The notes beneath the pieces are model-generated. The model saw only the letters and a program-made list of their open reading frames with translations. It ran no database searches and was not told where the DNA came from. From IMG/VR virus record IMGVR_UViG_3300007735_000933, positions 1 through 29,503 of that record: a stretch of 29,503 bases of DNA; one strand, 5' to 3'. Below are positions 11,112 through 29,503 of this stretch, one piece after another; the first letter of the stretch is position 1; each line of letters begins with the position of its first letter. The translations under genes were made by a program, and so were the position numbers. This stretch comes from a virus.

Positions 11112-12085
11112 AAATAGCATTCTTAACCGAAATGGGGTTTACTGGTAAAATTCCAAAAGAACACCCTAATATGCGAACTGAATTTGCGTGGATGTATGCC
11201 TTAGATGCAGACCATTATAACATATATTCACGAGTGGAAGGTTATGATGCTGTTTTTGTAATATTTCCAAAGGGGATGGTATTTTTAAATGCGGTTGGTG
11301 GTAAATTATCAAATGAAAAAAACCCAGTATCAGACCTTTTAGAGCTTAATATTATAGAAAAACTAAAACAAACTAACAAAAGGGTTTATTATATACAAGA
11401 AGGACCGCATTGGTTATGGAATGATTATGAACTAAATGACCAAATTAATTTTTATAATATGTTGGCTTCAACCGACGGTATATTTGCACACAATGAAGAA
11501 GATGTTAAGTATTATAAAGGTTTATTTCCAAATCAAAAAGTAGATACAATACCTACTTTAATGATAGAAGATAGTATTACGGATATTACACCAATAACCG
11601 AAAATAAAGTTATCATTGGTGGTAATTTTGCAAGATGGTATGGTGGATTTGAAAGTTATATGGTAGCTCAAGAGTTTGGGCTTCCAATTTGGGGTCAAAC
11701 ATCACACGCGATGCGGGAGGGGGAAGAACAAATAATTAATCATCTACCACGTGTGTTTTGGACTGACTGGATGACGCAGTTGAGTTCATTTAAATACGCT
11801 GTACATTTAATGCCTACTGTTGCAGCAGGAACATTCTCCCTAAATTGCGCATACTTTGGTATCCCTTGTATTGGAAATATTAATGTAGATACCCAACGAT
11901 TATGCCACCCACAATTATCAGTAGATGTGCATGATGTAGAAAAAGCAAAAAAGTTAGCAAAAAATTTGGTAAATGATGAAGAATTTCGTATATTGTGTAT
12001 AAATCAAGCGAAAGAAAATTATAAATTACACTATTCTTCTGTGGCAGAATGGAAACATAATATAAACAAAATGATAAATCAATGA
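11108..12085 (+). CDS. Probable glycosyltransferase, GT-B-like
   Basis: This 325-residue protein begins MKIAFLTEMGFTGKIP and has a Rossmann-like first half with YDAVFVIFPKG and VYYIQEGPHWLW. The second half has VIIGGNFARWYGG, then HLMPTVAAGTFSLNCAYFGIPCIGN, which occupies the place of the donor-binding end of GT-B transferases, and a final long helix. There is no clear EX7E pair, so the exact CAZy family is uncertain. It starts in the previous stop (ATGA) and ends in the next start, placing it firmly in the glycan operon. It could also be a glycan-modifying protein of the same fold. Confidence 0.65.
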   Translation: MKIAFLTEMGFTGKIPKEHPNMRTEFAWMYALDADHYNIYSRVEGYDAVFVIFPKGMVFLNAVGGKLSNEKNPVSDLLELNIIEKLKQTNKRVYYIQEGPHWLWNDYELNDQINFYNMLASTDGIFAHNEEDVKYYKGLFPNQKVDTIPTLMIEDSITDITPITENKVIIGGNFARWYGGFESYMVAQEFGLPIWGQTSHAMREGEEQIINHLPRVFWTDWMTQLSSFKYAVHLMPTVAAGTFSLNCAYFGIPCIGNINVDTQRLCHPQLSVDVHDVEKAKKLAKNLVNDEEFRILCINQAKENYKLHYSSVAEWKHNINKMINQ

Positions 12086-14463: not shown

Positions 14464-14540
14464 AGGGGGATGCTATCAAATCAATACAATCAAAATACAA
14501 ACACCAAGCGATAACAAATATTATAAATAAAACAATAACT
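14464..14540 (+). other. Intergenic gap with a TATAAATA element
   Basis: This 77-base A-rich gap is the largest in the window. I see no hairpin, tRNA or small gene. TATAAATA at 14522-14529 is the exact T4 late promoter core and lies 12 bases before the next ATG. It may start a transcript for the second half of the cassette. Confidence 0.6.
14522..14529 (+). promoter_or_regulatory. candidate T4-type late promoter TATAAATA
   Basis: This is an exact match to the core recognised by the gp55/gp33/gp45 system in T4. The clamp gp45 is encoded in this window; gp55 and gp33 are not. The distance to the ATG (12 bases) would leave a very short leader. Chance occurrence is plausible in AT-rich DNA. Confidence 0.3.
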
Positions 14541-15362
14541 ATGAATAAAACTTCTCATTTCATTGTGACAATTCACAACAAACAAGATTTGATTGAATCA
14601 GTGCTACAAGGTATAGTTAATTCAACAAAGGATACAACCTACAAAGTGAACATCATATGTGTGTTAGATGGGTGCACTGATAATTCAGAATTGATAATAG
14701 ATGCATTTGTAAATAGCAATAAAGACATCGACATCCACAAACTATATCAAAACGATGTGCATGAGTTGCTATCACTAAACGCAGCTTTTAGGTATATTGA
14801 AACATTGGATTCAACAAAGGATGATCTTATATTTTTACTTCAAGATGATGTTATTCTAAAAGAGGAGCATTTGAATGAGTATATGGAAGGGCTGTATAAA
14901 AATTACGATAATTTAGGTTATATATCCTTTAGATGCGGGTTATCAACTAATCTACAACATGGTTTATTATACGAACACAACTTTATTGAATCTGTTGATG
15001 GGCATTGGAGCCAATTAAAACTGGACCATTTTCATAAAATGGAGAATAGAGATTTTGGTTTTGTTGAAATAGCTATAAAAAGTCCAACATGCATAAAGAA
15101 ATCTGTGTTAGATGCAGTTGGTTATTTTGATGAAAACCTAGCACCATTTGGACATGATGATTTGGATTTATGTATTAGACTCAATAAGTTGGGTTATAAA
15201 AATGCAGTTTTTGGTGCCAGTTTTGATAGTAAATTAGATTGGGGTGGTACAAGAGAAGCAAAGAACCAATCCAAGCCGTATCACAAACAATACAACGATA
15301 TCATACTAAGAAACAAAATTTACCTAACACACAAACACGCAGATTATTATGCAGCTAAATAA
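14541..15362 (+). CDS. Glycosyltransferase family 2 (GT-A)
   Basis: This 273-residue protein has the GT2 opening HFIVTIHNKQDLIESVLQGI, the donor-site segment ICVLDGCTDNSELII, and the metal-binding LLQDDVIL with D102-D103. A second-half motif FGHDDLDLCIRLNKLGYKN is the classic ED/DLDLCxR acceptor helix of GT2 enzymes. Length is normal for the family. It follows the widest gap in the region, with an A-rich leader and no Shine-Dalgarno. Its end overlaps the following methyltransferase gene by 14 bases. Substrate is unknown. Confidence 0.9.
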   Translation: MNKTSHFIVTIHNKQDLIESVLQGIVNSTKDTTYKVNIICVLDGCTDNSELIIDAFVNSNKDIDIHKLYQNDVHELLSLNAAFRYIETLDSTKDDLIFLLQDDVILKEEHLNEYMEGLYKNYDNLGYISFRCGLSTNLQHGLLYEHNFIESVDGHWSQLKLDHFHKMENRDFGFVEIAIKSPTCIKKSVLDAVGYFDENLAPFGHDDLDLCIRLNKLGYKNAVFGASFDSKLDWGGTREAKNQSKPYHKQYNDIILRNKIYLTHKHADYYAAK

Positions 15363-16104
15363 AAATACATTACGAAGCGATTTTACAAAATTTAGTAATG
15401 AGTGGACTAACACACCTGAGTACAATGATTACATATATAATTACTTTGAACAGCAGGTGTCAAAAATAGAAGCACTTTCCTTGCACAATGACATTGTAGC
15501 TAGATACCAGCTTGGATACGGTGAGAAGGCATTTAGGTACTTGTGGGCCTTAGTTTTTTCACAAATACCATTAGATGGTAAATTTCTTGAAATCGGTGTG
15601 TACAAGGGTTCAATATTAGCACTTTCTCAGTTAATATCGAAGGAATTGAATTTAAACATACAAACATTTGGACTTGCACCACTCAATAACACTGGTGATA
15701 AGTATTCTACATACCCACTTGATAACTATGAGTATGCAATAGCGTATTTGTACAATCAGCTTAATCTAGATATGAATAACACTCAGTTTATACAGGGGTT
15801 ATCAACGGAAGACGTTATCAAGCAAGTTGCCAAGAAACAAGGTCCATATGATATTATTTACATAGATGGTGGGCACGATTATGGCACAGTTATTAGTGAT
15901 ATTAATTTATGCAATGAGATGCTTGTAGATGGTGGATTGCTTGTAATGGATGATGCTTCATCTCATCTTAACTTTAAATCAACACATGGCTTCACTGGTC
16001 ATGCTGATGTGGCTACAGCTATTGCTGACAACTTGGATAATAACTCAGACTATAGACACTTATTTGCATGTGGTCATAATAGGGTTTGGATTAAAAATAA
16101 ATAA
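15349..16104 (+). CDS. SAM-dependent methyltransferase (Methyltransf_24/TylF-like)
   Basis: This 251-residue protein should transfer a methyl group from S-adenosylmethionine, probably to a sugar hydroxyl in this setting. Motif I is FLEIGVYKGSIL with E81. The YIDGGHDYGTVISDI segment (D173, H176) is typical of the TylF/macrocin O-methyltransferase and Methyltransf_24 group, where the Asp/His cluster binds metal. LLVMDDASS follows as motif VI-like. About 70 N-terminal residues form a helical cap. It ends directly against the next ATG. It may cap or decorate a glycan made by the neighbouring transferases. Confidence 0.85.
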   Translation: MQLNKNTLRSDFTKFSNEWTNTPEYNDYIYNYFEQQVSKIEALSLHNDIVARYQLGYGEKAFRYLWALVFSQIPLDGKFLEIGVYKGSILALSQLISKELNLNIQTFGLAPLNNTGDKYSTYPLDNYEYAIAYLYNQLNLDMNNTQFIQGLSTEDVIKQVAKKQGPYDIIYIDGGHDYGTVISDINLCNEMLVDGGLLVMDDASSHLNFKSTHGFTGHADVATAIADNLDNNSDYRHLFACGHNRVWIKNK

Positions 16105-17082
16105 ATGAACTACATTATAATTACTTCCATTAATAGTGTGACTGAAGCGATAGAAAAGTATTCGCAGATACAGGATTGGCATATCTTAGTTGTTGGTGAT
16201 GTTAAAAGTACAACTTACTCACACTACAACACAACATTTTTAAACATAGAGCAACAGCACAAGTTACCATACAAATCTATCACTACAACACCCTACAAGC
16301 ACTATTCAAGAAAAAATATTGGCTACTTGTATGCAATTGAACATGGTGCAAATCTAATATTTGATACAGATGATGATACTATACCTTATAATAAAACATT
16401 GCATAGAGATTTTACGTGTGAAACAACCATTGGTGGATTGAAAAGCATTAACCCATATGCATTATTCACCAACGATTATGTTTGGCCTCGAGGTTATGAC
16501 CTTTCTTTATTGGGTAGAGAATCTGAGTATGTGTACTCAAAAACTACATCCAATGTTGGCGTATGGCAAGGCATAATTGACTCTGATACAGATGTGGACG
16601 CAATCTACAGACTAGCAAACAACAAACATATACATTTTGATTCAAATCCAGATATATGCATTGACTACAATTGCTTTGCTCCATTCAATACTCAGAGTAC
16701 TTTATGGAATAATAAACTCTACCCCCTTCTTTACATACCATCATCAGTTGATTTTAGATTTACCGACATACTACGTGGTTATGTAGCGCAACGTATCATG
16801 TGGGATTACGGCTATAAGGTTGGATTCCATGCACCAAATACGCACCAAATTAGAAATGCTCACAATTATTATCATGACCTATTAGGTGAACTCACAATGT
16901 ACAAATGTGTGCCAAATTTGCTAGACATACTAAGAGGTATGGAGTTTAATAATAAATCCATAGAAATGGATTTGCTAGATTGTTATAAGAAGTTGCATAT
17001 TAACAATATTGTTGAGGAGAGTGAACTGCAAAATTTGCAAAATTGGACTCTCGATATCGAATATATAAAGGACAAAAAATGA
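16105..17082 (+). CDS. STELLO/DUF288-like glycosyltransferase
   Basis: This 325-residue protein begins MNYIIITSINSVTEAIEKY. It has the signature NIGYLYAIEHGANLIFDTDDD, with D87, D89, D90 and D91, and later VWPRGYDLSLLG and QGIIDSDTDVDAIYRL (about 155-170). These three motifs in this order are characteristic of the STELLO/DUF288 family, first named for Golgi proteins in plants. Reversibly glycosylated proteins share the DDD motif. A later FRFTDILRGYVAQRIMWDYG is acceptor-side. No transmembrane anchor is seen, unlike the plant proteins. It starts immediately after the methyltransferase stop and overlaps the 4,6-dehydratase start by four bases. Confidence 0.7.
   Translation: MNYIIITSINSVTEAIEKYSQIQDWHILVVGDVKSTTYSHYNTTFLNIEQQHKLPYKSITTTPYKHYSRKNIGYLYAIEHGANLIFDTDDDTIPYNKTLHRDFTCETTIGGLKSINPYALFTNDYVWPRGYDLSLLGRESEYVYSKTTSNVGVWQGIIDSDTDVDAIYRLANNKHIHFDSNPDICIDYNCFAPFNTQSTLWNNKLYPLLYIPSSVDFRFTDILRGYVAQRIMWDYGYKVGFHAPNTHQIRNAHNYYHDLLGELTMYKCVPNLLDILRGMEFNNKSIEMDLLDCYKKLHINNIVEESELQNLQNWTLDIEYIKDKK
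17068..17073 (+). promoter_or_regulatory. Shine-Dalgarno AAAGGA
   Basis: AAAGGA is five bases before the ATG at 17079. It sets the start of the 4,6-dehydratase, whose frame is open upstream. Confidence 0.55.
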
Positions 17083-18032
17083 CTAAAGTAGTATATATAA
17101 CTGGTTGCTTAGGATTTATAGGTTCTTATGTAACCAAAACTTGTTTGGATTTGGGTTGGTATGTTAAAGGTGTAGATAAAATAACTTATGCTGCAAATAA
17201 AGACCTATTAACACAATTTAAAAAATACCCAAATTTTTCATTTGTTAATTGTGATATAAACGATTTAAAATTTTTATACGATTGTGATTATGTAATTAAT
17301 ACTGCCGCAGAAACTCATGTCGGTAATTCAATATTTGAAAGTGGTGTTTTTGTTGAATCAAATGTAAAAGGTGTTCATAATTTATTAGAACTAATTAAAA
17401 ATCATAGAGGAGAAAATATAGATAAACCAACATTATTACATTTTAGTACTGATGAAGTTTATGGTGATATTGAAGAGGGTGAGCACATTGAAACGGATTT
17501 ATTAAAACCATCAAACCCATATTCAGCTACAAAAGCAGCGGCAGATATGTTAGTTATGGCGTGGGGAAGAACATACGGATTACCATATATTATAGTAAGG
17601 CCTACAAACAACTATGGTATTGGGCAATATGTTGAAAAGTTAATACCAAAAACTTGTAAATACTTAAAATTAGGTAGAAAAGTTCCATTACACAATGGTG
17701 GAACACCCATAAGAAATTGGTTACATGCACAAGATACCGCTGATGCTATAATCACAATTATAAACGCAGGAGTTAAAAATGAAATTTATAATATTTGTGG
17801 TGGATTTGAGCAAAATAATTTGGAAACTGTAAAAAAGATTTGTATATTAGACAATAAAAATTTAGAAGAGTTGGATAATTATATTGATTTTTCTTGTGTA
17901 AGACCAGGACAAGACGTTAGATACGCTTTAAATGATTCTAAATTACAAAGGTTAGGGTGGGTGCCAAAAAAAGAATTTGATAACGAATTACCATTAATAA
18001 TTGAACATTATAAAAATAAATTTATATGGTAG
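17079..18032 (+). CDS. Nucleotide-sugar 4,6-dehydratase (RmlB/SDR family)
   Basis: This 317-residue protein is an extended short-chain dehydrogenase. The NAD-binding loop is GCLGFIGS (residues 9-16). The catalytic set is T124-D125-E126 in HFSTDEVYG and Y148/K152 in NPYSATK; the TDE triad is specific to 4,6-dehydratases. Later segments VRPTNNYGIGQYVEKLIPK and NWLHAQDTADAI match RmlB. It would convert an NDP-hexose, perhaps dTDP- or CDP-glucose, to the 4-keto-6-deoxy sugar. That product is the normal substrate for ColD/DdhC-type enzymes such as the one at 9969. Nucleotide specificity cannot be read. No rmlA nucleotidyltransferase is in the window, so the host or another phage region must supply it. 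Confidence 0.9.
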   Translation: MTKVVYITGCLGFIGSYVTKTCLDLGWYVKGVDKITYAANKDLLTQFKKYPNFSFVNCDINDLKFLYDCDYVINTAAETHVGNSIFESGVFVESNVKGVHNLLELIKNHRGENIDKPTLLHFSTDEVYGDIEEGEHIETDLLKPSNPYSATKAAADMLVMAWGRTYGLPYIIVRPTNNYGIGQYVEKLIPKTCKYLKLGRKVPLHNGGTPIRNWLHAQDTADAIITIINAGVKNEIYNICGGFEQNNLETVKKICILDNKNLEELDNYIDFSCVRPGQDVRYALNDSKLQRLGWVPKKEFDNELPLIIEHYKNKFIW

Positions 18033-19816
18033 GTGAGCATAAAATTGGGGCTGATTTAATTGTAGATTTTTTAGTTGAAAAAGAGATAGATACTGTATTT
18101 GGTGTGATTGGATCAGCAAATGCATATATATTTGACCGTATCGTAAGAAGAGGTTACACTAAAATTATATATATGCATCATGAACAATCTGTAGTAATGG
18201 CCGCTGGGGCATATTACAGAGCTAGCGGTAAGCTATCAGCCGCTATAGTAACAGCCGGGGGTGGTGCTGCTAACGCAGTAACTGGTGTGGTTTGTAATTG
18301 GGCTGATTCTATTCCTTGTCTTATTATTGCTGGGCAGGAAAGCTCATTATATATTAAAGACCATAATTGTCTTAGAATGTATGGTACACAAGGATTTAAT
18401 ACCATAAAAATGATACAAGGTGTTACTAAGTATTCTATATGTGTTACTAATAAAAATAAACTACTCAGTAACCTACAAGAAGCTTATTATCAAGCAATGG
18501 TGGGTCGGCCAGGTCCAGTGTGGGTTGATATTCCATTTGATATTCAAGGGGCAGTAGTTGATGAAAACCAATTACAACAATTCACCCCAGAAGTATTACC
18601 ACCAAACAATAATCATATTGCTGAAGTATTAGAGTTACTATCTAAATCAGAGAGACCAGTAATTTTAGCAGGGCATGGGGTTAAACTATCTAACTCAATA
18701 CCAAACTTTAGATGTCTTATTAATAAGCTGAAAATTCCAACTGTACTATCGTGGCTTGGTATTGATATTTTACACGAAAATCACCCCTATAATTTTGGCC
18801 GTCCGGGATTGTATGGTCAAAGACGTGCTAATTTTGTTATACAAAACTGCGATTTACTAATTGTGTTAGGAAGTAGGTTATCACTACCACAAACAGGATA
18901 TAATATAAAAAATTTTGCACCTAATGCAAAAATCATAATCATAAATAATGACTCAGAAGAATTAGCAAAGCATGTAAATCGTTATGAACTACCCATCAAT
19001 ACAGATTGTGGTGAGTTTATTAGAGAGCTACTAGAACATGCTATCGATTGCTTTAAACCTGAATGGTATAGTAAGTGTGTTTCATATGCCAATAATTTTC
19101 CACCAATTGAACCCTATCATTTAGAAGATAACAAAAAGTACAATAATTCTTATGTGACTGTTGATAAATTATCAGATATACTAGATGAAGATGCCATTAT
19201 AATTTTAGATCAAGGTACTCCTTTAGCGAGTGGGCACCAAGCTTTAAAAATTAAACAAAATCAGATTGTATTCTCATCAAATGGATTAGGAGAGATGGGT
19301 AATGGATTACCTTCAGCCATTGGTGCGGCGGTTGCTAATCCAACAAAGCAAGTAGTTGCATTAATAGCAGATGGGAGTACGATGATGAATCTGCAGGAGT
19401 TCCAAACTGTAATTGGATATAATCTTCCTATAAAATTTGTATTATTTAATAATGAAGGTTATTTATTTATTAAACATACCCAAAAAATGTTATTTAATGG
19501 CCGATATACTGGAGTGAATAGTAATACTGGGGTTTCAATGCCAAATTATGAAAAGATTGCTAATGCCTTTGGTTTAATCTATATGAATACATATACCCAT
19601 AGTATTGAAAATGCTCTAAAAACTGAAGGCCCAGTATTATTTGAAACTTTTATGAATCCCGAACAAGAGCTTTTACCTAAAGTTAAAGGGATTGTTACTA
19701 ATGATGGTATATTAGCCCCACCGTTAGAAGAGATGTCACCACTTTTATCTCTAAAGCAGGTAAAGAGTAATATGATATTAGGTCTAAATGAAATTTCACA
19801 TAAAATCCAAAGATGA
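18026..19816 (+). CDS. TPP-dependent enzyme, acetolactate-synthase-like
   Basis: This 596-residue protein has the three-domain thiamine diphosphate enzyme layout. The N-terminal domain holds the activating glutamate E53 in MHHEQSVVMAAGAYYR, then TAGGGAANAVTG and WADSIPCLIIAGQE, as in acetolactate synthase. A middle domain with LILAGHGV and IVLGSRLSLPQTG follows. The C-terminal domain has GEMGNGLPSAIGAA and the TPP/Mg motif ADGSTMMNLQEF with FVLFNNEGY about 20 residues on; the usual first Gly of GDG is Ala. It would bind or decarboxylate a 2-keto acid such as pyruvate. In Yersinia, YerE of this family adds a two-carbon unit to a keto-sugar. It starts inside the 4,6-dehydratase end, so a sugar-linked role is favoured over amino acid synthesis. 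Confidence 0.88.
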   Translation: MVGEHKIGADLIVDFLVEKEIDTVFGVIGSANAYIFDRIVRRGYTKIIYMHHEQSVVMAAGAYYRASGKLSAAIVTAGGGAANAVTGVVCNWADSIPCLIIAGQESSLYIKDHNCLRMYGTQGFNTIKMIQGVTKYSICVTNKNKLLSNLQEAYYQAMVGRPGPVWVDIPFDIQGAVVDENQLQQFTPEVLPPNNNHIAEVLELLSKSERPVILAGHGVKLSNSIPNFRCLINKLKIPTVLSWLGIDILHENHPYNFGRPGLYGQRRANFVIQNCDLLIVLGSRLSLPQTGYNIKNFAPNAKIIIINNDSEELAKHVNRYELPINTDCGEFIRELLEHAIDCFKPEWYSKCVSYANNFPPIEPYHLEDNKKYNNSYVTVDKLSDILDEDAIIILDQGTPLASGHQALKIKQNQIVFSSNGLGEMGNGLPSAIGAAVANPTKQVVALIADGSTMMNLQEFQTVIGYNLPIKFVLFNNEGYLFIKHTQKMLFNGRYTGVNSNTGVSMPNYEKIANAFGLIYMNTYTHSIENALKTEGPVLFETFMNPEQELLPKVKGIVTNDGILAPPLEEMSPLLSLKQVKSNMILGLNEISHKIQR

Positions 19817-20505
19817 ATTTAACATTACAAAGTATTCCCTCACCATTAGTATCCGAAGTACTTGCGAGTACACAACTAGATGGTATTGTACTAGATACAG
19901 AGCATGGTTACTATAATAATGAAACCTTGTTTAGTTGTATACAAATTATTACATTAATGCAAAAAAAATGCTTTGTTCGCTTTACCGACCTTAATAAACA
20001 ACTAATACGAATGTGTTTAGACGCCGGTATTGATGGGGCAATTTTTTCTACTATTGAATCATATCAACAAGGTATAGAAGCTATAAAGTATTGTACTTAT
20101 CCAATTCATGGGGGTGTTCGTGGTAGTGCATTGGTAAGAGAAAATAAGTATGGAGAGTTGGAAATTGGAAAAAAAAGACCTATATTAATAGGACAAGTTG
20201 AAACAAAAGAGGCAGTAAACAATCTATCAGATATACTCAAGTGTGGTTTTGATTACTATGTAATTGGCCCATATGATTTATCTGCAAGTTTAGGCTGCAC
20301 GGCAGATTGGAATAATCCATTATATAAAGAATATTATGAAAAGATTAATCAGTTTATCCCACAAGATAATTTAGGTGCATTCTTGCCTTCAAAACAAGAT
20401 ATAAATAAATTTTTAGCTGATAACAAAGCAAGACCTAGTCTATTAATCTGGGGGTTAGATGTAGATTTTATTAAACAAGGAATTAAAAATATAAAAGTAA
20501 TATGA
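19813..20505 (+). CDS. HpcH/HpaI-family aldolase
   Basis: This 230-residue protein is a class II pyruvate-type aldolase. DTEHGYY holds the catalytic His (H31). VRFTD has the conserved Arg. The metal ligands are the Glu of GQVETKEAVNN and the Asp of IGPYDLSASLG. The ordinary family length is about 250-265, so the N-terminus is slightly short, but every catalytic motif is kept. Family members cleave or form 4-hydroxy-2-keto acids from pyruvate and an aldehyde. It is coupled to the TPP gene by an ATGA overlap and to the DJ-1-like gene in the same way. Both enzymes use 2-keto acids, so they may share a metabolite. Confidence 0.88.
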   Translation: MNLTLQSIPSPLVSEVLASTQLDGIVLDTEHGYYNNETLFSCIQIITLMQKKCFVRFTDLNKQLIRMCLDAGIDGAIFSTIESYQQGIEAIKYCTYPIHGGVRGSALVRENKYGELEIGKKRPILIGQVETKEAVNNLSDILKCGFDYYVIGPYDLSASLGCTADWNNPLYKEYYEKINQFIPQDNLGAFLPSKQDINKFLADNKARPSLLIWGLDVDFIKQGIKNIKVI

Positions 20506-21056
20506 AACAAAATAAAGCATTAATAATGACCTATGAAGGTTATAAAGACTACGAAGCTATTTATCCATACTATCGTCTACTCGAAGAAGGGTTTCAAGTA
20601 GATGTTATATCAAATACTATCAATAATGTAAAAGGAATATTAGGAGGATCAATTCCAAGTCATTTTTTGCTTAAGGAGCTACAAGATCTAAATAAGTTTG
20701 AAAAATTCCTAAACGAATATGATATCCTTATTATCCCAGGTGGTGTAACGTCATTAGAAAAGCTTCGTTTGGAAGTTACAGCAGTTAAGTTTATTATTAA
20801 GTGGAATAAACTAGGTAAGATTATTGGGAGTATCTGTTCTGGTGCTCAAATGCTTATCACAGCAAAAATCTTACAAGGAAGAAGAGTGTCTGCTTATTAT
20901 AGCATGGAGCAAGATATTTGGAATGCTGGAGCTACATTTATTGATGCACCAGTAGTAGTTGATGATAATATTATAAGTAGCCCACATTATAAATGGGTTG
21001 GTCATTGGATGAAAGAGGTAATACAAACCTATAATAAGTTAAGTTATGAGCCATAA
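20502..21056 (+). CDS. DJ-1/PfpI superfamily protein
   Basis: This 184-residue protein has the class I glutamine amidotransferase-like fold. The conserved Glu is E18 in the KDYEAIYPYYRL segment, and the nucleophile elbow Cys is C112 in SICSGAQ. FLNEYDILIIPGG and GRRVSAYYSMEQDIWNAGATF complete the usual PfpI/DJ-1 series. Members include glyoxalases, isocyanide hydratases and small-molecule hydrolases. The elbow is CSG instead of the CHG of proteases, so a proteolytic role is unlikely. In this operon it may act on a keto or aldehyde intermediate, or repair glycated products. It overlaps both neighbours. Confidence 0.82.
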   Translation: MKQNKALIMTYEGYKDYEAIYPYYRLLEEGFQVDVISNTINNVKGILGGSIPSHFLLKELQDLNKFEKFLNEYDILIIPGGVTSLEKLRLEVTAVKFIIKWNKLGKIIGSICSGAQMLITAKILQGRRVSAYYSMEQDIWNAGATFIDAPVVVDDNIISSPHYKWVGHWMKEVIQTYNKLSYEP

Positions 21057-21726
21057 TAAAAATGTTGTAAAAAAACCATGGGGGTATGAGTATCTTGCTT
21101 ATGAAAATGAGGAAGTGGGTTTGTGGTTTCTTAATATTAAGAAAAATCAAAGTACCTCAATGCATTGCCACCCAACTAAAACTACAGGATTAGTTCTTTT
21201 AGATGGAATTGCAGAGATATCTTTTTTAAGTGATAAGAGAATACTACAAGGTTTAGATAAGGTTATGATACGTAGAGGGTTATTTCACCAAACTAAAGCA
21301 TTATCCGATCAGGTATTATTACTTGAGATTGAGACCCCAAAAGATAAACATGACCTGGTTCGATTGTTTGATAAATATGGAAGAGAGTCTAAACCATATG
21401 AGGATAATAGCTTTGAGTATCCGAAAGAGTCTGATTGTCTTTGGATTAAAGAACCGGAACTTAATCAATCTTACATCTATAATTTTGGCGGAAACACTCT
21501 TATAGTAGAAAATATAAATGATATAGATGTTATAAACAGAAAAAAAGACACAGATCTACTTATGTTTCTTAAAGGTGGTTTAGTTAGAAATATCAACAAT
21601 AAAGCTTATCTAGTTACTATTCCTGGTGATGTAGGCTTTGCAAATATTATTAAACAAGTATCAAGTCAACTAGATGGTGTGGCTGATAATACTATTATAA
21701 TGACAATACAAAAGTATGATAGATAA
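21046..21726 (+). CDS. Cupin-domain protein
   Basis: This 226-residue protein opens with VVKKPWGYEYL, as in mannose-6-phosphate isomerase-type cupins. The metal motif is H40-x-H42 in SMHCHPTKTTGLVLLDG, with a later His in MIRRGLFHQTKAL. A second, more degenerate beta domain follows from about residue 140 (NFGGNTLIVEN, LVTIPGDVGFA), so it may be a two-domain protein with one working site. Sugar isomerase, epimerase or small-molecule binding are all possible. It sits between the DJ-1-like and HAD genes with short overlaps, in the six-gene metabolic block. Confidence 0.8.
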   Translation: MSHNKNVVKKPWGYEYLAYENEEVGLWFLNIKKNQSTSMHCHPTKTTGLVLLDGIAEISFLSDKRILQGLDKVMIRRGLFHQTKALSDQVLLLEIETPKDKHDLVRLFDKYGRESKPYEDNSFEYPKESDCLWIKEPELNQSYIYNFGGNTLIVENINDIDVINRKKDTDLLMFLKGGLVRNINNKAYLVTIPGDVGFANIIKQVSSQLDGVADNTIIMTIQKYDR

Positions 21727-22105
21727 ATTCCCTCCTGGATTTGAAAAAGATGTTAATAACATCGCAATTGACTTTGATGGAGTCATTCACAACTTCGACA
21801 AGGGTTTTCACGATGGTACCTGTTATGGTGACCCTTTGCCTGGGTCACTAGATGCTATTAAAAAGCTAGCTACACAATACAATATAATTATATTTACCGC
21901 TAAGGCAAAACCAAACCGACCACTAATAAATGGTAAGACTGGTACTCAACTTGTATCTGAGTGGTTAGAGAAGCACAATGTGCTAGACTACATCTCAGAA
22001 ATAACATCAGAGAAACCTAGGGCCTTTTTATACATCGATGATAATGGTTATAGATTTAATAATTGGAATGATACTTTAAACTTTATTAAGAATGGTTTTA
22101 ATTGA
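21716..22105 (+). CDS. HAD-superfamily phosphatase
   Basis: This 129-residue small HAD protein has motif I IDFDGVI with D19 (nucleophile) and D21 (acid), motif II FTAK with T61, and motif III/IV around K100 and D108-D109 in FLYIDDNGYRF. There is no cap domain beyond a short insert, so it probably acts on small or exposed phosphates such as a sugar or acid phosphate. The family includes phage and LPS-cluster phosphatases similar to KdsC in role. Its stop overlaps the start of the Ldh2-like gene by 14 bases. A step that removes phosphate before or after an aldolase reaction is a reasonable inference. Confidence 0.82.
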   Translation: MIDKFPPGFEKDVNNIAIDFDGVIHNFDKGFHDGTCYGDPLPGSLDAIKKLATQYNIIIFTAKAKPNRPLINGKTGTQLVSEWLEKHNVLDYISEITSEKPRAFLYIDDNGYRFNNWNDTLNFIKNGFN

Positions 22106-23126
22106 TTCTAACAAATTCAGAGCAGTAATGTATGAGTGTATGTTATCAACTGGTGTTGAGGTTGAAGTTGCTAATGCAGTAACTGAATCTCTAATTGAAA
22201 CCTCTTTAAGAGGTGTTGACTCTCATGGTATTCACTTATTCCCACACTATTATAAGGAATTAACTCTTAATAGGCTCAACAAGAATTCTAATATTGAAAT
22301 AGAACAAAAAAGTCCTTCTGTATCTATACTAGATGCTAAAAATACATTTGGGCATTTTGCTGGAAAAAAAGCTATGTTAGAAGCAATTCAATTAGCACAA
22401 CATACTGGAATTGGGGTTGTTAGTGTAAAGAACTCAACACATTTCGGGGCAGCTTGGTACTTCACTAATATTGCTGCAAGATATGAAATGATTGGGCTGG
22501 CATTAACTAATACTGAAGCATTAGTTAATGCTTATGGAAGCAAAGAAACTTTTTTTGGAACTAATCCAATAGCCTTTTCAGCTCCAATGAGAGATGAAAA
22601 TCCTTATTGTTTAGATATGGCAACTTCTACAATACCTTGGAATAAAGTTAAAAATTATAAAAGACAAAATAAGCCTTTAAAATTAGAATGGGCCTATGAT
22701 AACAATGGACAACCAACTATAGATCCTCATCATGCCGCATCACTCAGTAGTATTGGTGGTTATAAAGGATTTGGATTAGGAATGCTTATTGAAATATTAT
22801 GTTCAGGACTAACCACAGGTCCAATGAGTAAACAGATTGCACCTCTTTATGACTTATCTATAACTTATAATAGAAATATAAGCCACTTTTTTATGGCTTT
22901 AGATATCTCTAGGTTTGTATCTGTTAATTGGTTTAAAGGTTATCTTTCAGACATGGCTACTCAAATCAGGAATTTACCAAAAGTAGGAACGAATGATGTT
23001 ATGGTAGCAGGTGATAAAGAAAAAATGTCATATGAACATAGAAAGCTTAATGGTATACCTATAGAAGATTCTATGTTATTAGAATTTCTTTCAATTTCAA
23101 ATAAATTTAATCATACTATTTTATGA
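22092..23126 (+). CDS. Ldh2/MdhC-family malate/lactate-type dehydrogenase
   Basis: This 344-residue protein belongs to the Ldh2/YlbC (type 2 malate/L-lactate) dehydrogenase family, which reduces 2-keto acids or imines with NAD(P)H. It keeps RGVDSHG with the catalytic H45, NSTHFGAAWYF, GTNPIAFSAP, DMATSTIPWNKV, and the GGYKGFGLGMLIEILCSGLTTG substrate-cofactor region. Length matches the family (330-360). It is the last gene of the metabolic block; with the aldolase and TPP enzyme it could reduce the keto group of a product to a hydroxy acid. The stop overlaps the next gene by four bases. Confidence 0.87.
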   Translation: MVLIDSNKFRAVMYECMLSTGVEVEVANAVTESLIETSLRGVDSHGIHLFPHYYKELTLNRLNKNSNIEIEQKSPSVSILDAKNTFGHFAGKKAMLEAIQLAQHTGIGVVSVKNSTHFGAAWYFTNIAARYEMIGLALTNTEALVNAYGSKETFFGTNPIAFSAPMRDENPYCLDMATSTIPWNKVKNYKRQNKPLKLEWAYDNNGQPTIDPHHAASLSSIGGYKGFGLGMLIEILCSGLTTGPMSKQIAPLYDLSITYNRNISHFFMALDISRFVSVNWFKGYLSDMATQIRNLPKVGTNDVMVAGDKEKMSYEHRKLNGIPIEDSMLLEFLSISNKFNHTIL

Positions 23127-23974
23127 AAATAGCAATTATAGGTGCAAACGGATTTTTAGGTTCAAATTTTGTAAAAAAATTACAAAATGAGAAACACGAA
23201 ATTTGTTCAATAATACGGAGTACAATTAATCCATTTGAAAAAATATTAGAATTTGAACCTGATGTAGTTGTTCATTTTGCATGGAATGGTGGTAATAATT
23301 ACGAAAGTGTGAGTGATATAAAACAATTTGATAATGTTATAAATGGTATTGAATTACTGAACCCATTAAATATATTATCAAAAAAACCAAAATTTATTGG
23401 AATCGGAAGCTTTTCAGAATATGGAAATTTAAAACACCCAGCAAGTGAAACTGATAAAGAATGTCCAAATAATTTATATGGGTTATCTAAATATACATTC
23501 AAAAATTATAGTAAAATGTTATGTGAAAAATTTAATATGAATTGGGTTTGGGTAAGACCTTGTTACACTTATGGGCCGGGTGACATTTCTACAAGATTAA
23601 TTCCTAAAGTAATTAATACTATTATAAACAATCAAAAATTAGAATTGGATAGTTGTAATAAAATAATAGATTATCTTTATATTGATGATTTTACTAATTA
23701 TTTATACAAATTGGTTATTGGTGATAATACCGATGGCATATATAACTTATGTTCTGGTAATCAATATAATTTAAAAGAGGTTATACACACAATATGTAAA
23801 TTAATGAATAGCTCTGATAATATTATTTTTAACGCTACTAATGGCAGAAATTTAACATCCCCAATCATATGTGGATACAATCATAAAATAAAAAAATACA
23901 GTAAAATAACAAAATTAACAGAACTAACCGATGGGTTAAATAAAACAATAAATTATTATAAAAATGAAAGATAA
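23123..23974 (+). CDS. NAD-dependent epimerase/dehydratase (sugar reductase-like SDR)
   Basis: This 283-residue extended SDR has the cofactor loop GANGFLGS (residues 8-15), the Ser in IGIGSFSEYG, and the catalytic YGLSK. VWVRPCYTYGPGD and DYLYIDDF follow. The SFSEYG plus YGLSK pair, with no TDE triad, points to a 4-reductase or epimerase of the RfbJ (CDP-abequose synthase) or WcaG type, not a dehydratase. It could reduce the keto group left after the 3-dehydratase or TPP steps. It is more AT-rich to the eye than the six-gene block before it, like the two genes after it. Nucleotide specificity is unknown. Confidence 0.85.
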   Translation: MKIAIIGANGFLGSNFVKKLQNEKHEICSIIRSTINPFEKILEFEPDVVVHFAWNGGNNYESVSDIKQFDNVINGIELLNPLNILSKKPKFIGIGSFSEYGNLKHPASETDKECPNNLYGLSKYTFKNYSKMLCEKFNMNWVWVRPCYTYGPGDISTRLIPKVINTIINNQKLELDSCNKIIDYLYIDDFTNYLYKLVIGDNTDGIYNLCSGNQYNLKEVIHTICKLMNSSDNIIFNATNGRNLTSPIICGYNHKIKKYSKITKLTELTDGLNKTINYYKNER

Positions 23975-24602
23975 AGTAACAATAAAAGATGATAAGTGGG
24001 TGTGGCCTTTAATTGATGAAAATTCTTGGGAAGGACAAAATGAATTTACCGAAATAGCTGAAAAACTATTACCCCATGTCAAAAATAAAAATATAATGAT
24101 TCAGGCGGGTGGAAATTGTGGATTTCTTTTAAGTAAATTCGTTGAGCATTTCAATATCATATATACATTTGAACCAGACCCTATAAATTTTTATTGTCTT
24201 AATCAAAATGTAACATCGCAAAATGTGATAAAAATGCAGGCGTGTTTGGGAAACACACCATCAACTGTAAAAACCCAACAACTTATAAGACCTGAAAGAT
24301 TACATGATATTGGCGGAGTTCATATTGTAGGCGAAGGTTATACACCAACAATTTTAATTGATAATCTTAATTTAAGTGGTTGTGATTTGATTCAGTTAGA
24401 TGTAGAAGGTTATGAATTAAATGCTTTATTGGGTTCTATTGAGACTATTAAAAAATATAAACCTGTTTTATGTATTGAATTTTGTGAAAAATGGTTAAAT
24501 AGATACGAATGTAATTCTGATAAACTATATGAATTAATATCGGAATTGGGATATACTCAAGTTGATGAGTATGGTTCTGATAAAATTTTCATTTATAAAT
24601 AA
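23964..24602 (+). CDS. FkbM-family methyltransferase
   Basis: This 212-residue protein has the FkbM signature: QAGGNCGFL as the SAM loop, YTFEPDPINFYCLNQN (acidic end of strand 2), and LIQLDVEGYELNALLGS with D146 and E148, the family hallmark. A final IEFCEKW strand and YTQVDEYGSDKIFIYK complete the fold. FkbM enzymes are usually O-methyltransferases and are frequent in LPS and polysaccharide clusters. It overlaps the upstream reductase by 11 bases, so the two may act on the same sugar. Target is unknown. Confidence 0.9.
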   Translation: MKDKVTIKDDKWVWPLIDENSWEGQNEFTEIAEKLLPHVKNKNIMIQAGGNCGFLLSKFVEHFNIIYTFEPDPINFYCLNQNVTSQNVIKMQACLGNTPSTVKTQQLIRPERLHDIGGVHIVGEGYTPTILIDNLNLSGCDLIQLDVEGYELNALLGSIETIKKYKPVLCIEFCEKWLNRYECNSDKLYELISELGYTQVDEYGSDKIFIYK

Positions 24603-24603
24603 T

Positions 24604-25887
24604 ATGAAAAAAATTACTTTTGCCACCAATATAGGGCCTGATACATTAGAATATACTAAACTATTAGTTAAATCTTTAAAAGAAAATTTGGATGGTGCTG
24701 AACATGAATTATTATTTTTTGTAGATAACGATACAGATAATACATTGGATTATTTAAAATCGATAAAAAAAGATTTTTACAAAGTAACAATAATTAGGCA
24801 TAAACTAAATCCTATTGTTGGTCCTGAAAGAAATATAAATTTAATCGTAGATTTTTCATCAAATGATATAGTTAGTTATCTACAAACCGATATGGTTGTA
24901 TCTAAGCATTATGATACTGATATATTAAGAGATTTGGAAGAAGATTGTATTTTAAGTTCTACACGAATAGAGCCACCATTACATGGTGTATCCGATAAAA
25001 CTATTACGAAAAATTTTGGATTAACTCCATATGAATTTGATTGGGATTCTTTTTTAAAATTTGCTGACGAAATTAAGGAAAATAAAAGTATAGAATACTT
25101 TTTTGCTCCATTTACATTTTATAAAGATTCTTGGAAAAAACTTGGTGGATTTGATACTATATTTAGAAGGTCTAGATGTGATTCCGATTTGGTTCAAAGG
25201 TGTTTACTTGGTGGAATTAAACTAAAACAAACTTTTTCTGCGAATGTATATCATTTTACATGCGTTAGTTCTAGAGGTAAAAATTGGTATAATTTAAACA
25301 ATGATTTGGCTAAAAAGCGTGTAGAATTACAAAACAACGCAGATTTTATTGAACTAAGAAAGTTTGTTCGTAAGTGGGGTAGTTTTAATCATGGCGACTC
25401 TAAATTAATAAAATTTGATATAGATTTGGTTGTAGTGGGTAATATTACCAATAATTATAAACTAATTTATGATTTAGAACCATTTTTTTCAAGAGTTTGG
25501 TTTAATAATACCAATGATAGGGATAATACTAAAAACCTAAATTTGGATGAGAATGAATATGCTAATGTTTTATATAATTTTAAAAGTGGTGATTGGGATA
25601 AAAGTAAAATATTTTACAATCAAACCGATTATGATAGTATTTACAAAGTAGGTGCTCCTGATAAATTTAATATAAAAATTGAAGTAAATTTTAATAAAAT
25701 TAATTATATGGGTGATGAATTTTTGCAAAATGTGCAAAATATTCATTTAATATTAAGTGAGTATGGTGTGGGGGTATATGAATTTGGGTTTGCTAAAATA
25801 GAAATACTGAATTTAGCTATCGTATCACCCACTAATTCTTTAATTGATAATCCACCATTTGATAATAGTTTGTTAATTGTGGAATAA
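24604..25887 (+). CDS. Glycosyltransferase family 2-like protein
   Basis: This 427-residue protein starts at the ATG at 24604, just after the FkbM stop; the open frame extends upstream but would overlap that gene. The N-terminal 250 residues are GT2-like: ITFATNIGPDTLEYTKLLV, HELLFFVDNDTDNT, and YLQTDMVVSKHY with D96 in the DxD position. FAPFTFYKDSWKKLGGFD and SDLVQRCLLGG are the acceptor-side motifs. The last 170 residues, with many Asn and Asp, form a separate domain of unknown role. It ends the cassette and is followed by a 41-base gap with a promoter-like motif. Confidence 0.82.
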   Translation: MKKITFATNIGPDTLEYTKLLVKSLKENLDGAEHELLFFVDNDTDNTLDYLKSIKKDFYKVTIIRHKLNPIVGPERNINLIVDFSSNDIVSYLQTDMVVSKHYDTDILRDLEEDCILSSTRIEPPLHGVSDKTITKNFGLTPYEFDWDSFLKFADEIKENKSIEYFFAPFTFYKDSWKKLGGFDTIFRRSRCDSDLVQRCLLGGIKLKQTFSANVYHFTCVSSRGKNWYNLNNDLAKKRVELQNNADFIELRKFVRKWGSFNHGDSKLIKFDIDLVVVGNITNNYKLIYDLEPFFSRVWFNNTNDRDNTKNLNLDENEYANVLYNFKSGDWDKSKIFYNQTDYDSIYKVGAPDKFNIKIEVNFNKINYMGDEFLQNVQNIHLILSEYGVGVYEFGFAKIEILNLAIVSPTNSLIDNPPFDNSLLIVE

Positions 25888-26218: not shown

Positions 26219-26470
26219 ATGAAGAGATTTTTTACTGAAATCTTCCAAGACGAAAAAGGAGGATTTTCATCCAAACGATTTGTGGGTATTTTATCAGCAT
26301 TGACACTATGTGTTACAATGTACCACAATCAATTCACCGAATCCCACATCGCTCCAGCTGATTCATTAGTAAATGCAGTTGCCGCACTTGCTTTTGGAGC
26401 TTTAGGTTTAGCATCCGCAGATAAGATTTTCAAAAAGAAAGATTGTAACTGCGACAAAGGGGAGGAATAA
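26219..26470 (+). CDS. Small membrane protein, holin candidate
   Basis: This 83-residue protein has two hydrophobic stretches, about residues 21-37 (FVGILSALTLCVTMYHN) and 48-66 (SLVNAVAALAFGALGLASA), with a short hydrophilic turn. The C-terminal tail is charged and has two Cys (DCNCDKGEE). The N-terminal FQDEKGGFSSKRF is typical of a small phage membrane protein family annotated as holin. Holins form pores that time lysis. No endolysin is seen in the window, so the lysis role is inferred from size, topology and the adjacent second small membrane gene. It has a good ribosome site. Confidence 0.65.
   Translation: MKRFFTEIFQDEKGGFSSKRFVGILSALTLCVTMYHNQFTESHIAPADSLVNAVAALAFGALGLASADKIFKKKDCNCDKGEE
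26461..26465 (+). promoter_or_regulatory. Strong Shine-Dalgarno GGAGG
   Basis: GGAGG lies seven bases before the ATG at 26473, inside the end of the upstream gene. It is the best ribosome site in the window. Confidence 0.7.
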
Positions 26471-26472
26471 TT

Positions 26473-26817
26473 ATGGGACTTCTCAACAAACTATTATACA
26501 ACGAAGATTTTCAAAGAGTTGAAAATGACCAAAGATTCAATTTCATGCTTCAAACCATGCAATCAAATCGTTGGAAAATCACACTATTAATTTTATTTAC
26601 ATTCTTTTTTATCGTATTCGGTATTGTTTTGGCAGTAATGTTCAAAGCAAGTATTGAAGAAGCATGGAAAGAATTACTACTTATCCTTTTAGGTGCTTTT
26701 GTGGGTAATCTAAACAAAGTAGTAGACTTTTGGTTCTCTAACGAAGATAGAGATAAGATGCTTGTTCAGAAAATGGACGAAGAAGATGGGGTTTCGCTAT
26801 CATCAAATGAAGAATAG
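26473..26817 (+). CDS. Small membrane protein, second holin-like candidate
   Basis: This 114-residue protein has a soluble N-terminal 30 residues, a first membrane segment (about 36-57, ITLLILFTFFFIVFGIVLAV), and a weaker second one (about 67-80, ELLLILLGAFVGNL). The tail is acidic. It follows the other small membrane gene by two bases, so the two are surely co-translated. A pair of this kind may act as holin and antiholin, or as two parts of an envelope-bound complex. No named family is recognised. Confidence 0.6.
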   Translation: MGLLNKLLYNEDFQRVENDQRFNFMLQTMQSNRWKITLLILFTFFFIVFGIVLAVMFKASIEEAWKELLLILLGAFVGNLNKVVDFWFSNEDRDKMLVQKMDEEDGVSLSSNEE

Positions 26818-26837: not shown

Positions 26838-28739
26838 ATGAAAAAACTTATTTTATTATTTGCGTTACTTTTACCATTTGGAGCATTTGCTCAAAACGGA
26901 AGAACGGAAGTATTAGTATCACCAAACTCAAACTCACCACACTTTTTGATTGATACGGTGTTTACATTGGGTAGTATATTACAGGATACTACTGTAGTAT
27001 ATCTACACTATCATAACCCAACTGCTACAAACTATGCTGGTTTTCAGGTTAGATTTTTCTATCCAACCACAGCGTTCAAACAACCTATTATAAAGTGGGG
27101 ACCGACCGCAGCAGGAATCGGTACAAAATATGGTTCTTATTATAGTCAGCCTGGTTGGGTAAACGCAACGGCAATTTACACTGGAGCATCAGCAGTATTT
27201 GATTGGCCCGATGGTGCTGTATTTGAAGTTTTACTCCCACACGCCGTTGGATTCAATCCTTCTGCCGTTGATTCATTGGAAGTTCAATCTACCCCTGCTT
27301 ACACAAACATAGCAACCACAACCGCGGGTGTTGATATTGCTTTGGGGGTTTATAGTTATGGTGGTAGATTCCAAATGGATACTTTGGTGTTCCCTGTAAC
27401 CTTATTAAATGTAGATGGAACACCTGCGCCGGATATGCCATTCGCATTTGATTACAAATTGAAAACTACACAAACTTATAGTCGTGGTGCAAGATTTGTA
27501 ACAAATAATACGGGTTTGGCAAGTATTAAAGTTCCATACGATACATCTTTCTACAATGTTAAGTTAGTATCCAATTTAGATACACTCTCTGATAATTCTG
27601 CTATCAACATTACCGATGCTTATAAATTATCCGATATGAGTATTTACGCTGATACCGCCCAAGCATATGAGTTCCAACAAGGTGATGTAAACCGAAGTGG
27701 AACATTATCCGTATCCGATGCTTATTTAATATTTAATCGTCTAGCAACAGGTAGAACCACTTGGTCTCCTGTAGTAGCAAATGAATACAATGTTAGGTAC
27801 TATACCGCAGGAGAATACGCTACTATTATGGCTAACCCAGATGTGTTTCAAACCAATATCATAGGTACAACTAATATTGATGTTCCGTTGAATGGATTAA
27901 GTTCATTAAGTTATAGAGGGTATGTTTTAGGGGATGTAACAAATACTGGATTAAACAACTTATCATTCCAAATTCAAAGAGTAAACAACCCAACAAGCGG
28001 AACATCTTATGTATTGGATGAAGGAACAATCTATCAAAACATTGAAGATTCGGTTCAATTTAGAATACCTAAATTAACTATTTCAGATGATAATACCGCA
28101 GATGTGGCTGTTACCTTTATCACACATGGAAACAAAGTAGGTGCAGCACAATTATCCTTAAAGTATGACCCAACCATTTTTAGGTTTACAAATGTTAATG
28201 TAGGGCCGGAAGCAAGTGCTTGGAACGCATTCATTTCAGCAAAGCCTGGTGAGATAACTTGGGGTGGACACGAATCTAAAATGTCTCCATCACTTATCAC
28301 TAACCCAACTCAAATGTTTAATTTCCAATTTGAAATCTTAAATCAAAACTGGGAACAATCACCTATTAAAATAACCAACAAAGCAGCAGGTAATGAAAAG
28401 GCAGAAGATTTGAATATCATTCCTTCACCTGTAGATGCGACTGTGGTCAATGGTAGAAGAGCAAGAGAACTTGTAAATGAGTTGGTAAACGGATTTAGAG
28501 TATATCCTAATCCTGTTCAAGATAACTTAAACATAGATTATTTCCAAACAAATTGGGGATATTTAACATACGAAATCTACGATTATATGGGTAAAAACTT
28601 TTATTCAGAAAAAGAGTTCGTAAATCAAAATCAAGTAGTTACGAAAACAATCAATGTTAGTGATTTAAAGACAGGTTTTTACTTTGTAAGATTAACCACT
28701 AACGAAAAGCAAAAAGTTTACAAAATATTTAAATTCTAA
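26838..28739 (+). CDS. Secreted protein with type IX secretion sorting domain and cohesin/dockerin-like parts
   Basis: This 633-residue protein starts with a signal peptide, a Lys pair, a hydrophobic run and a predicted cleavage after AFA (residue 19). A beta-rich N-terminal half follows. Residues 282-302, GDVNRSGTLSVSDAYLIFNRL, fit a dockerin-type calcium loop (D283, N285, S287, D294), with a weaker SAINITDAYKL unit before it. A cohesin-like domain lies around 420-530 (AAQLSLKYDPTIFRF). The C-terminus (about 550-633) is a type A T9SS sorting domain: YPNP at 556-559, a GxxTYEIYDYMGK-like core, LKTGFYFVRL and a basic KVYKIFKF end. Such proteins are exported across the outer membrane and anchored or released in Bacteroidetes. 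In a phage this implies the host's T9SS displays it. Function is unknown. Confidence 0.82.
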   Translation: MKKLILLFALLLPFGAFAQNGRTEVLVSPNSNSPHFLIDTVFTLGSILQDTTVVYLHYHNPTATNYAGFQVRFFYPTTAFKQPIIKWGPTAAGIGTKYGSYYSQPGWVNATAIYTGASAVFDWPDGAVFEVLLPHAVGFNPSAVDSLEVQSTPAYTNIATTTAGVDIALGVYSYGGRFQMDTLVFPVTLLNVDGTPAPDMPFAFDYKLKTTQTYSRGARFVTNNTGLASIKVPYDTSFYNVKLVSNLDTLSDNSAINITDAYKLSDMSIYADTAQAYEFQQGDVNRSGTLSVSDAYLIFNRLATGRTTWSPVVANEYNVRYYTAGEYATIMANPDVFQTNIIGTTNIDVPLNGLSSLSYRGYVLGDVTNTGLNNLSFQIQRVNNPTSGTSYVLDEGTIYQNIEDSVQFRIPKLTISDDNTADVAVTFITHGNKVGAAQLSLKYDPTIFRFTNVNVGPEASAWNAFISAKPGEITWGGHESKMSPSLITNPTQMFNFQFEILNQNWEQSPIKITNKAAGNEKAEDLNIIPSPVDATVVNGRRARELVNELVNGFRVYPNPVQDNLNIDYFQTNWGYLTYEIYDYMGKNFYSEKEFVNQNQVVTKTINVSDLKTGFYFVRLTTNEKQKVYKIFKF

Positions 28740-28753: not shown

Positions 28754-29155
28754 ATGGCAGAAGAGACAGAAAATGATGGTACTTGGGGTGGATTAAAAAA
28801 GACTATCGTTGGAACACTCGCCACTGTAGTTACGGGTGGTGGTGTGTGGATTTCCACAACCTTATTCGGTGGTGGTGGAAACGATAGTGAAGAAACTAAA
28901 ACCGAACAAGCAGCACCTGCAGCAGCACCAGTAATCAATCTTAATTTGGAGAACAACAACCAAAGTAATGCATCCGCAGGTGGTGGTGGTGGAACTACCG
29001 TAATCAGAGAAAAAGAAACTATCAGAGAAGTAGCACCAGCTCAATCAACCGCAGCTCCTGCTGCAGCAGCACCTGTTGAAGAAAAGAAAGAAACACCTGC
29101 TGAAAGAATGAGAAGGTTGAGAGCTAAGCAAGCAGAACAGGAAGGTGAAGAATGA
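28754..29155 (+). CDS. Small membrane-anchored Ala/Pro-rich protein
   Basis: This 133-residue protein has a weak membrane segment near residues 17-35 (TIVGTLATVVTGGGVWIST) after an acidic N-terminus. Then comes a Gly-rich hinge, a stretch of Ala/Pro repeats (QAAPAAAPV, later AAPAAAAPV), an Asn-rich patch and a Gly run. A basic end (ERMRRLRAKQA) closes it. The layout suggests a tether that spans from membrane to another partner. Composition is low in complexity, so database matches may mislead. Its stop overlaps the next start (ATGA). It may belong with the CsgG-like gene. I do not recognise a family. Confidence 0.65.
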   Translation: MAEETENDGTWGGLKKTIVGTLATVVTGGGVWISTTLFGGGGNDSEETKTEQAAPAAAPVINLNLENNNQSNASAGGGGGTTVIREKETIREVAPAQSTAAPAAAAPVEEKKETPAERMRRLRAKQAEQEGEE

Positions 29156-29503
29156 GAGAAATAGTTTTAATTCCAATCGTAAGTTGCTTGTTGTTATTGG
29201 GTGGATGTAAATCATCTATTTCAACTACACAATATCAAGCTGATTTTGAAAAGACGGATAGAACATTAGAATCTATCTCTGCCTATACAGGTAAGAAGCA
29301 AACGCTTCAACTTTCAAAATTAAATGTAAACAAAGAACTTTGGGAGACATTTCCTGAATTGAGAGAGAAAAGACTCGGCTTAGGTGTATCTAATCGTATT
29401 ATAGAAAACCTATTATATACTAATCGTTTTGAATTTACTGAAGAAAAAGATGCCGTTGTAAACCAAATGTTGGATGCATGGGAAAAGAAGATTGATGGTT
29501 TAG
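29152..29503 (+). CDS. CsgG-like outer-membrane lipoprotein, N-terminal part
   Basis: About 117 residues are visible and the gene runs off the window end. The N-terminus has a lipoprotein signal, LLLLGGC, with the lipid-modified Cys at residue 19. After a variable segment, LGLGVSNRIIENLLYTNRFEFTEEKDAV closely resembles the CsgG/HfaB motif, where a G-x-G-xS-x-x-LxxxLxxxxRFxxxER run is typical. CsgG forms the outer-membrane pore for curli subunits. CsgG-like genes occur in some marine T4-like phages. The ATG overlaps the upstream stop by four bases. The beta-hairpin pore-forming part is beyond the window, so pore function cannot be checked. Confidence 0.7.
   Translation, partial: MREIVLIPIVSCLLLLGGCKSSISTTQYQADFEKTDRTLESISAYTGKKQTLQLSKLNVNKELWETFPELREKRLGLGVSNRIIENLLYTNRFEFTEEKDAVVNQMLDAWEKKIDGL

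Follow-up and report, generated by a model that had tools for sequence, protein, structure and literature searches.

The whole stretch of DNA analysed here, called the window, is a single linear IMG/VR virus record (29,503 bases). It encodes a protein with a signal peptide, predicted cohesin domains, a dockerin-like repeat pair and a type A sorting domain of the type IX secretion system (T9SS). Its gene is part of a conserved viral module that also encodes a lectin-type partner, and the C-terminus of the partner is homologous to the X-dockerin stretch of the tagged protein. The phage may build a lectin-bearing scaffold on the infected cell via the host T9SS, a reading to which we give a probability of about 0.5. 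Coordinates of the features are listed in Table 1.

Table 1. Features of the scaffold gene and its neighbours in the window.
Feature	Position	Strand	Basis or remark
tm83, small membrane protein, frequent neighbour upstream of the scaffold gene	26219..26470	+	ORF list, neighbourhood comparison
tm114, small membrane protein, frequent neighbour of the scaffold gene	26473..26817	+	ORF list, neighbourhood comparison
T9SS-tagged scaffold (cargo) gene	26838..28739	+	ATG to stop, 633 aa; ORF, translation, Pfam, NCBIfam, homologues
Predicted signal peptide, residues 1-19	26838..26894	+	Sequence pattern, hydropathy scan
First predicted cohesin-fold domain (Coh1), residues 30-182	26925..27383	+	AlphaFold model, VIA-align
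Ig-like X module, residues 183-246	27384..27575	+	Model strands; homology to same part of lectin partners
Dockerin-like repeat pair, residues 247-308, helical in model	27576..27761	+	Loop pattern, Dockerin_1 in relatives
Small domain after dockerin-like pair, shared with lectin partners	27762..27965	+	hhalign to lectin C-termini
Second cohesin domain (Coh2), residues 405-532	28050..28433	+	PF00963; fold match
T9SS type A C-terminal sorting domain, residues 552-633	28491..28736	+	PF18962, TIGR04183, fold match
TM132, single-TM protein, second module gene	28754..29155	+	86 of 91 contigs
Predicted CsgG-fold lipoprotein, incomplete at window end	29152..29503	+	Lipobox-like GGC; fold of L002 copy

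The tagged gene and its domains

Nearly every gene in the window is on the + strand. T4-type replication genes are present, including the end of a family B DNA polymerase, a sliding clamp, and large and small clamp-loader subunits. A gp23-type capsid protein was found by T4 capsid gp23 search in seven of ten long module-bearing records, including that of the cultured phage immuto. The scaffold ORF sits on phage DNA, and these genes answer the concern in the initial annotation that this part could be host DNA. The scaffold protein had no match in PHROGs. Between the replication genes and the scaffold module is a long cassette resembling glycosyltransferase and sugar-metabolism genes (6090-25887), with functions judged by eye except at 24562-25887 (PF00535). 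This region looks hypervariable, because the relative L002 has other genes at the same place.

The N-terminus of the scaffold protein, MKKLILLFALLLPFGAFAQ, has the pattern of a signal peptide by inspection and hydropathy scan, with a basic start, a hydrophobic core and A-x-A-Q, and is predicted to function in Sec export. Residues 555-632 match Por_Secre_tail (PF18962, E 2.5e-14, 53.7 bits, gathering score 27), and the protein matches TIGR04183 with 40.2 bits (cut-off 23). PF18962 was found in all 33 scanned relatives, so the match is not due to chance. In the structure model, the tail aligns to 8glk_D, the sorting domain of NucA as seen within a T9SS complex (VIA-align Z 8.8). The initial annotation proposed a signal peptide and a type A T9SS tail for this ORF; its coordinates proved exact, and the tail scores well above the curated cut-offs of the T9SS families. 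Eight of ten phage records encode one T9SS tail and two encode two; the tail is usually single and located at the scaffold gene. The second tagged ORF is away from the scaffold module in the records behind L020 and L010, near 7090 and 9322.

The AlphaFold model of the scaffold protein was built from 33 relatives and has a mean pLDDT of 81 and a pTM of 0.61. Sequence and model give the domain order signal peptide, cohesin, Ig-like X module, dockerin-like pair, small domain, cohesin, linker and T9SS tail. Coh1 had no sequence-profile match in the Pfam scan of the protein and has a cohesin fold in the predicted model, which aligns to CaCohA2 (6kgc_A) over 138 residues (VIA-align Z 13.3, rmsd 3.1). 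Coh2 matches PF00963 at residues 409-517 (26.0 bits, gathering score 24.1), and its model aligns to 4dh2_C and 1ohz_A (VIA-align Z 12.2). A cohesin was detected by sequence profile in 32 of the 33 relatives. Coh1 and Coh2 have no convincing profile relation to each other (hhalign probability 6%). The X module region has a CarboxypepD_reg match in one relative.

The second dockerin-like repeat contains a canonical calcium-loop pattern, DVNRSGTLSVSD, at residues 283-294 and may bind calcium. Loop residues D283, N285 and D294 are invariant (33/33). The first repeat keeps D260, has one extra residue and lacks the usual calcium-loop pattern. Dockerin_1 (PF00404) matches 8 of 33 relatives with E up to 0.01 (best 7.8e-5) and gave no match to the window copy in the Pfam scan. 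The term dockerin-like is used because the first repeat is off-pattern and the window copy has no Dockerin_1 match. Coh-X-Doc of Clostridium thermocellum CipA (3kcp_A) aligns to residues 33-308 in identical domain order, and the overall rmsd of 10.5 probably reflects different domain placement.

The scaffold protein resembles other T9SS type A cargo in its signal peptide, a sorting domain above curated cut-offs and the NucA sorting-domain fold. It differs in being phage-encoded, in being mostly the sole tagged gene of its record, and in having cohesin and dockerin-like modules instead of an enzyme. It shares the Coh-X-Doc order with the cellulosome scaffoldin CipA (Coh-X-DocII) and, with anchoring scaffoldins, a cohesin on a protein with a surface-anchoring signal. 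Unlike cellulosome scaffoldins, it is a phage gene product, carries a T9SS tail where they have an S-layer or sortase anchor, has lectin partners rather than cellulases, and its dockerin is divergent.

The whole ORF has a dN/dS of about 0.06-0.13 against near relatives with measurable synonymous distance (values above about 1 synonymous distance are near saturated) and is therefore under purifying selection. Low dN/dS also holds for each cohesin, for the dockerin-like part and for the tail.

The conserved viral module

Relatives were collected with two queries, the scaffold protein and its CsgG-fold neighbour, and 80 of 208 relatives were kept for the CsgG-fold query. Loci on one contig were merged to give 91 distinct viral contigs, the window not counted. 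The search of related phages for the same cargo, suggested in the initial annotation, recovered it in 83 of these contigs. The other families are TM132 (86), the CsgG-fold protein (90), a predicted outer-membrane protein (88), the lectin-type partner (79) and a small signal-peptide protein (79); all six occur together in 73 of 91 contigs. These frequencies depend on how the contigs were found, with scaffold and CsgG-fold queries. Among 59 contigs found through the CsgG-fold gene alone, 51 have the scaffold gene, and several others end at a contig edge. The initial annotation did not notice the cohesin and dockerin-like domains or the conserved neighbour genes.

The downstream module genes were read from L002 and L004 because the window ends inside the CsgG-fold gene. 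The L002 and L004 scaffold proteins are 96% identical to that of the window. The gene after the CsgG-fold gene, omp410, encodes a signal peptide and a C-terminal part that by inspection resembles an outer-membrane beta barrel. This predicted outer-membrane protein (L002 12987-14219) has a long low-complexity middle rich in Ser, Gly and Asn that varies in length. The small signal-peptide protein p133a (L002 15944-16345, L006 15954-16409) has a C-terminal stretch in common with the CsgG-fold protein (hhalign 95.6%, E 1.3e-8). In window-type phages, the module is followed by a GH19-type endolysin, a spanin-like ORF and a Phage_holin_4_1 match (L002 16802-18439).

The gene for the lectin-type partner lies outside the window and is known from relatives. 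The partner has a signal peptide and a variable head, and its C-terminus shares homology with the X module, dockerin-like pair and small domain of the scaffold. The scaffold X-dockerin stretch aligns to the partner C-termini with an hhalign probability of 99.6% (E 2.7e-24). Pfam scans of 35 partner proteins found Lectin_C heads in 16, PA14 in 8 and Laminin_G_3 in 5. No T9SS sorting domain was found in partner proteins by Pfam and NCBIfam scans. A diversity-generating retroelement was considered as a source of the variable lectin heads and rejected, as reverse transcriptase is absent from ten records.

The 35 partner proteins have lectin, PA14, laminin-G and Ig-like domains and no catalytic family in Pfam, and thus, unlike cellulosomes, no dockerin-borne catalytic domains. 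No catalytic domain was found in the scaffold protein either, which speaks against the surface enzyme listed among the initial options. Capture of the gene from the host was another option. One pattern scan of bacterial genomes with the scaffold protein found no relatives (such scans can miss distant ones). The CsgG-fold neighbour, used as a query in its turn, retrieved just three metagenome-assembled contigs, in which the genes stand in nearly the same order. These contigs (L120, L121 and L122) look like phage contigs binned with bacteria; one is filed under Sphingomonadaceae, and L120 encodes a divergent 597-aa scaffold-like protein. Recent capture is unlikely because the gene is in a conserved viral module and the bacterial scans were nearly empty.

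The scaffold and lectins could be virion parts that help adsorption or decorate the head with lectin folds. Phage particles commonly bear C-type lectin and Ig-like folds, and the partner heads vary like receptor-binding proteins. Signal peptides on the scaffold, partners and predicted outer-membrane protein, together with the scaffold T9SS tail, point to the host envelope instead, and either signal is rare on virion proteins. The immuto scaffold gene is also far from the capsid gene. A virion role is very unlikely.

Cultured phage immuto and the CsgG-fold neighbour

The cultured Flavobacterium phage vB_FspM_immuto (L006) carries the module as gp013-gp019. Its host, Flavobacterium sp. LMO8, agrees with the Bacteroidetes host proposed in the initial annotation. 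Immuto module proteins have mostly 27-39% identity, and their annotation goes no further than lectin, cohesin domain and hypothetical protein. The scaffold is encoded by two genes (L006 11598-13422): gp014 is Coh-X-Doc, with its cohesin predicted from homology to the modelled scaffold protein, and gp015 has a cohesin and T9SS tail by Pfam. gp013 (lectin-X-Doc) adjoins gp014 and gp015, and each of the three genes encodes a signal peptide. The split looks real and not a frameshift, because the second gene has its own signal peptide. The split form was found in 15 contigs, and one contig (L030) has two Coh-X-Doc genes ahead of the anchor gene. By domain content, the split layout reads as a small cohesin-dockerin scaffold with a putative anchor, adaptor and client. 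Immuto differs from the window phage in its two scaffold genes, a family A DNA polymerase, and a lectin gene upstream of the scaffold genes.

The tagged protein could also be a T9SS-displayed adhesin acting alone, with cohesin and dockerin-like parts as structural spacers and partners that work separately. Many non-cellulosomal proteins have cohesin or dockerin-like modules without known pairing, and the failure of Dockerin_1 to match the window copy fits such a role. We consider this unlikely, as it is difficult to account for the split immuto-type genes, and for a homologous X-dockerin on the lectin partner, unless the modules pair. The adhesin or receptor mask of the initial annotation may still apply to the surface role of the protein, but the domain anatomy favours a scaffold that holds separate lectins.

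The complete CsgG-fold gene was taken from L002 (12311-13006). Its model has a CsgG fold: the best Foldseek E is 1.2e-7, the top 25 chains are all CsgG or CsgG complexes, and VIA-align to CsgG 4uv2 gives Z 13.7 over 157 residues at 2.8 A. As the mean pLDDT of the model is only 68.6, CsgG is a fold assignment and no proof of a pore. PF03783 matched the CsgG-fold protein in 0 of 6 records and gave a weak match in 1 of 30 family members (E 1.9e-4). Single-sequence and profile searches of the PDB gave no link from this protein to CsgG, and comparison by hhalign with aligned CsgG sequences of E. coli and HTVC008M yielded a probability of 2%. A lipobox-like cysteine is present in window-type copies and absent from most immuto-type copies. 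No CsgF or curlin (CsgA/B) was among the matches of the general Pfam scans.

CsgG/CsgF curli clusters are known in pelagiphages and phage Melnitz (PMC7029224, PMC9004378, PMC9599517). The module resembles them in occurring in marine phages, of which the myophages are T4-like, and in carrying, within a conserved cluster, a gene of the CsgG outer-membrane pore type. It differs in a CsgG-fold protein that PF03783 misses except for the weak match above, in its Bacteroidetes hosts and in its T9SS scaffold. The Melnitz authors suggested a pinholin-like role for CsgGF (PMC9004378). The present module could likewise be a lysis or pore device, with a pore made by the CsgG-fold protein in the outer membrane, and with the T9SS protein and lectins as accessory parts to place or gate it. 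The CsgG fold of the module protein is consistent with this, as is the position of the module in window relatives, where it directly precedes endolysin, spanin-like and holin genes. In immuto, however, the module adjoins nucleotide genes and the endolysin is several kb away. A pore device also leaves the cohesins, dockerin-like modules, swappable lectin heads and T9SS tail unexplained, and we regard it as quite improbable.

Proposed function and relation to known systems

The ORF, T9SS tail, X-dockerin homology and gene order are observed, and the cohesin and CsgG folds are taken from models. From these we infer cohesin-dockerin binding, secretion, a surface location, glycan targets and a benefit to the phage. 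The scaffold protein would leave the cytoplasm by Sec and then by the host T9SS. Its C-terminal domain would be removed, and the scaffold would stay on, or be released from, the outer surface. Scaffold cohesins would dock the dockerin-like modules of phage partners whose head is a C-type lectin, PA14 or laminin-G domain, and scaffold copies may join one another through their own dockerin-like module. The outcome would be a phage-made lectin array on the infected cell.

The lectin clients, with a signal peptide and no T9SS tail, may be exported or anchored by the CsgG-fold and predicted outer-membrane proteins. Alternatively, the T9SS pore, which is wide, may let them through together with the tagged protein. 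One anchor for several untagged clients fits the presence of one T9SS tail in eight records and two in the other two.

The likeliest benefit would come from lectins that bind glycans on the surface of the same cell or of its neighbours. Such binding may keep new hosts close to a cell near lysis, an idea proposed as 'sibling capture' for the curli genes of pelagiphages (PMC7029224). It may instead cover receptors, so that infected cells and debris do not use up rival phages or the phage's own progeny. These two options are not separable from sequence. More tentatively, and at somewhat lower odds, phages of the T4-like group that infect Bacteroidetes may carry a portable, virus-evolved cohesin-dockerin system with an anchor, an adaptor, swappable lectin clients and its own CsgG-type outer-membrane component. 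This system would remodel the infected-cell surface via the host T9SS to capture neighbours or exclude rival phages.

The initial annotation called phage-encoded T9SS cargo rarely described, a fair statement given two reports. Cryophage encodes T9SS type A-tagged endoglucanase, GH39 and PA14 proteins, termed 'a unique occurrence' (PMC7468147), and gut phages have T9SS-tagged ORFs near BACON proteins (PMC6949934). The Cryophage proteins are similar in being phage-encoded T9SS type A cargo, one with PA14. Each of them is itself tagged and they vary between phages, whereas in the present module the tag is on a conserved protein and the variable lectin partner lacks it. In the open-licence PMC papers searched, we found no description of cohesin or dockerin proteins of Bacteroidetes phages, or of a T9SS-anchored cohesin-dockerin scaffold with swappable lectins. 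Phage T9SS cargo and pelagiphage curli pores are thus already known, and the scaffold-lectin module is apparently new.

The idea is directly testable, because isolates of both immuto and its Flavobacterium host exist. If it holds, the host T9SS serves a phage to display a modular scaffold on a doomed cell, and the sugar specificity of the scaffold would be changeable through the swap of one client gene. Cohesin-dockerin logic would extend to viruses. The reading would also assign a role to an unannotated gene set common to scores of aquatic phages, and the curli genes of pelagiphages, themselves unexplained, would gain a parallel open to testing.
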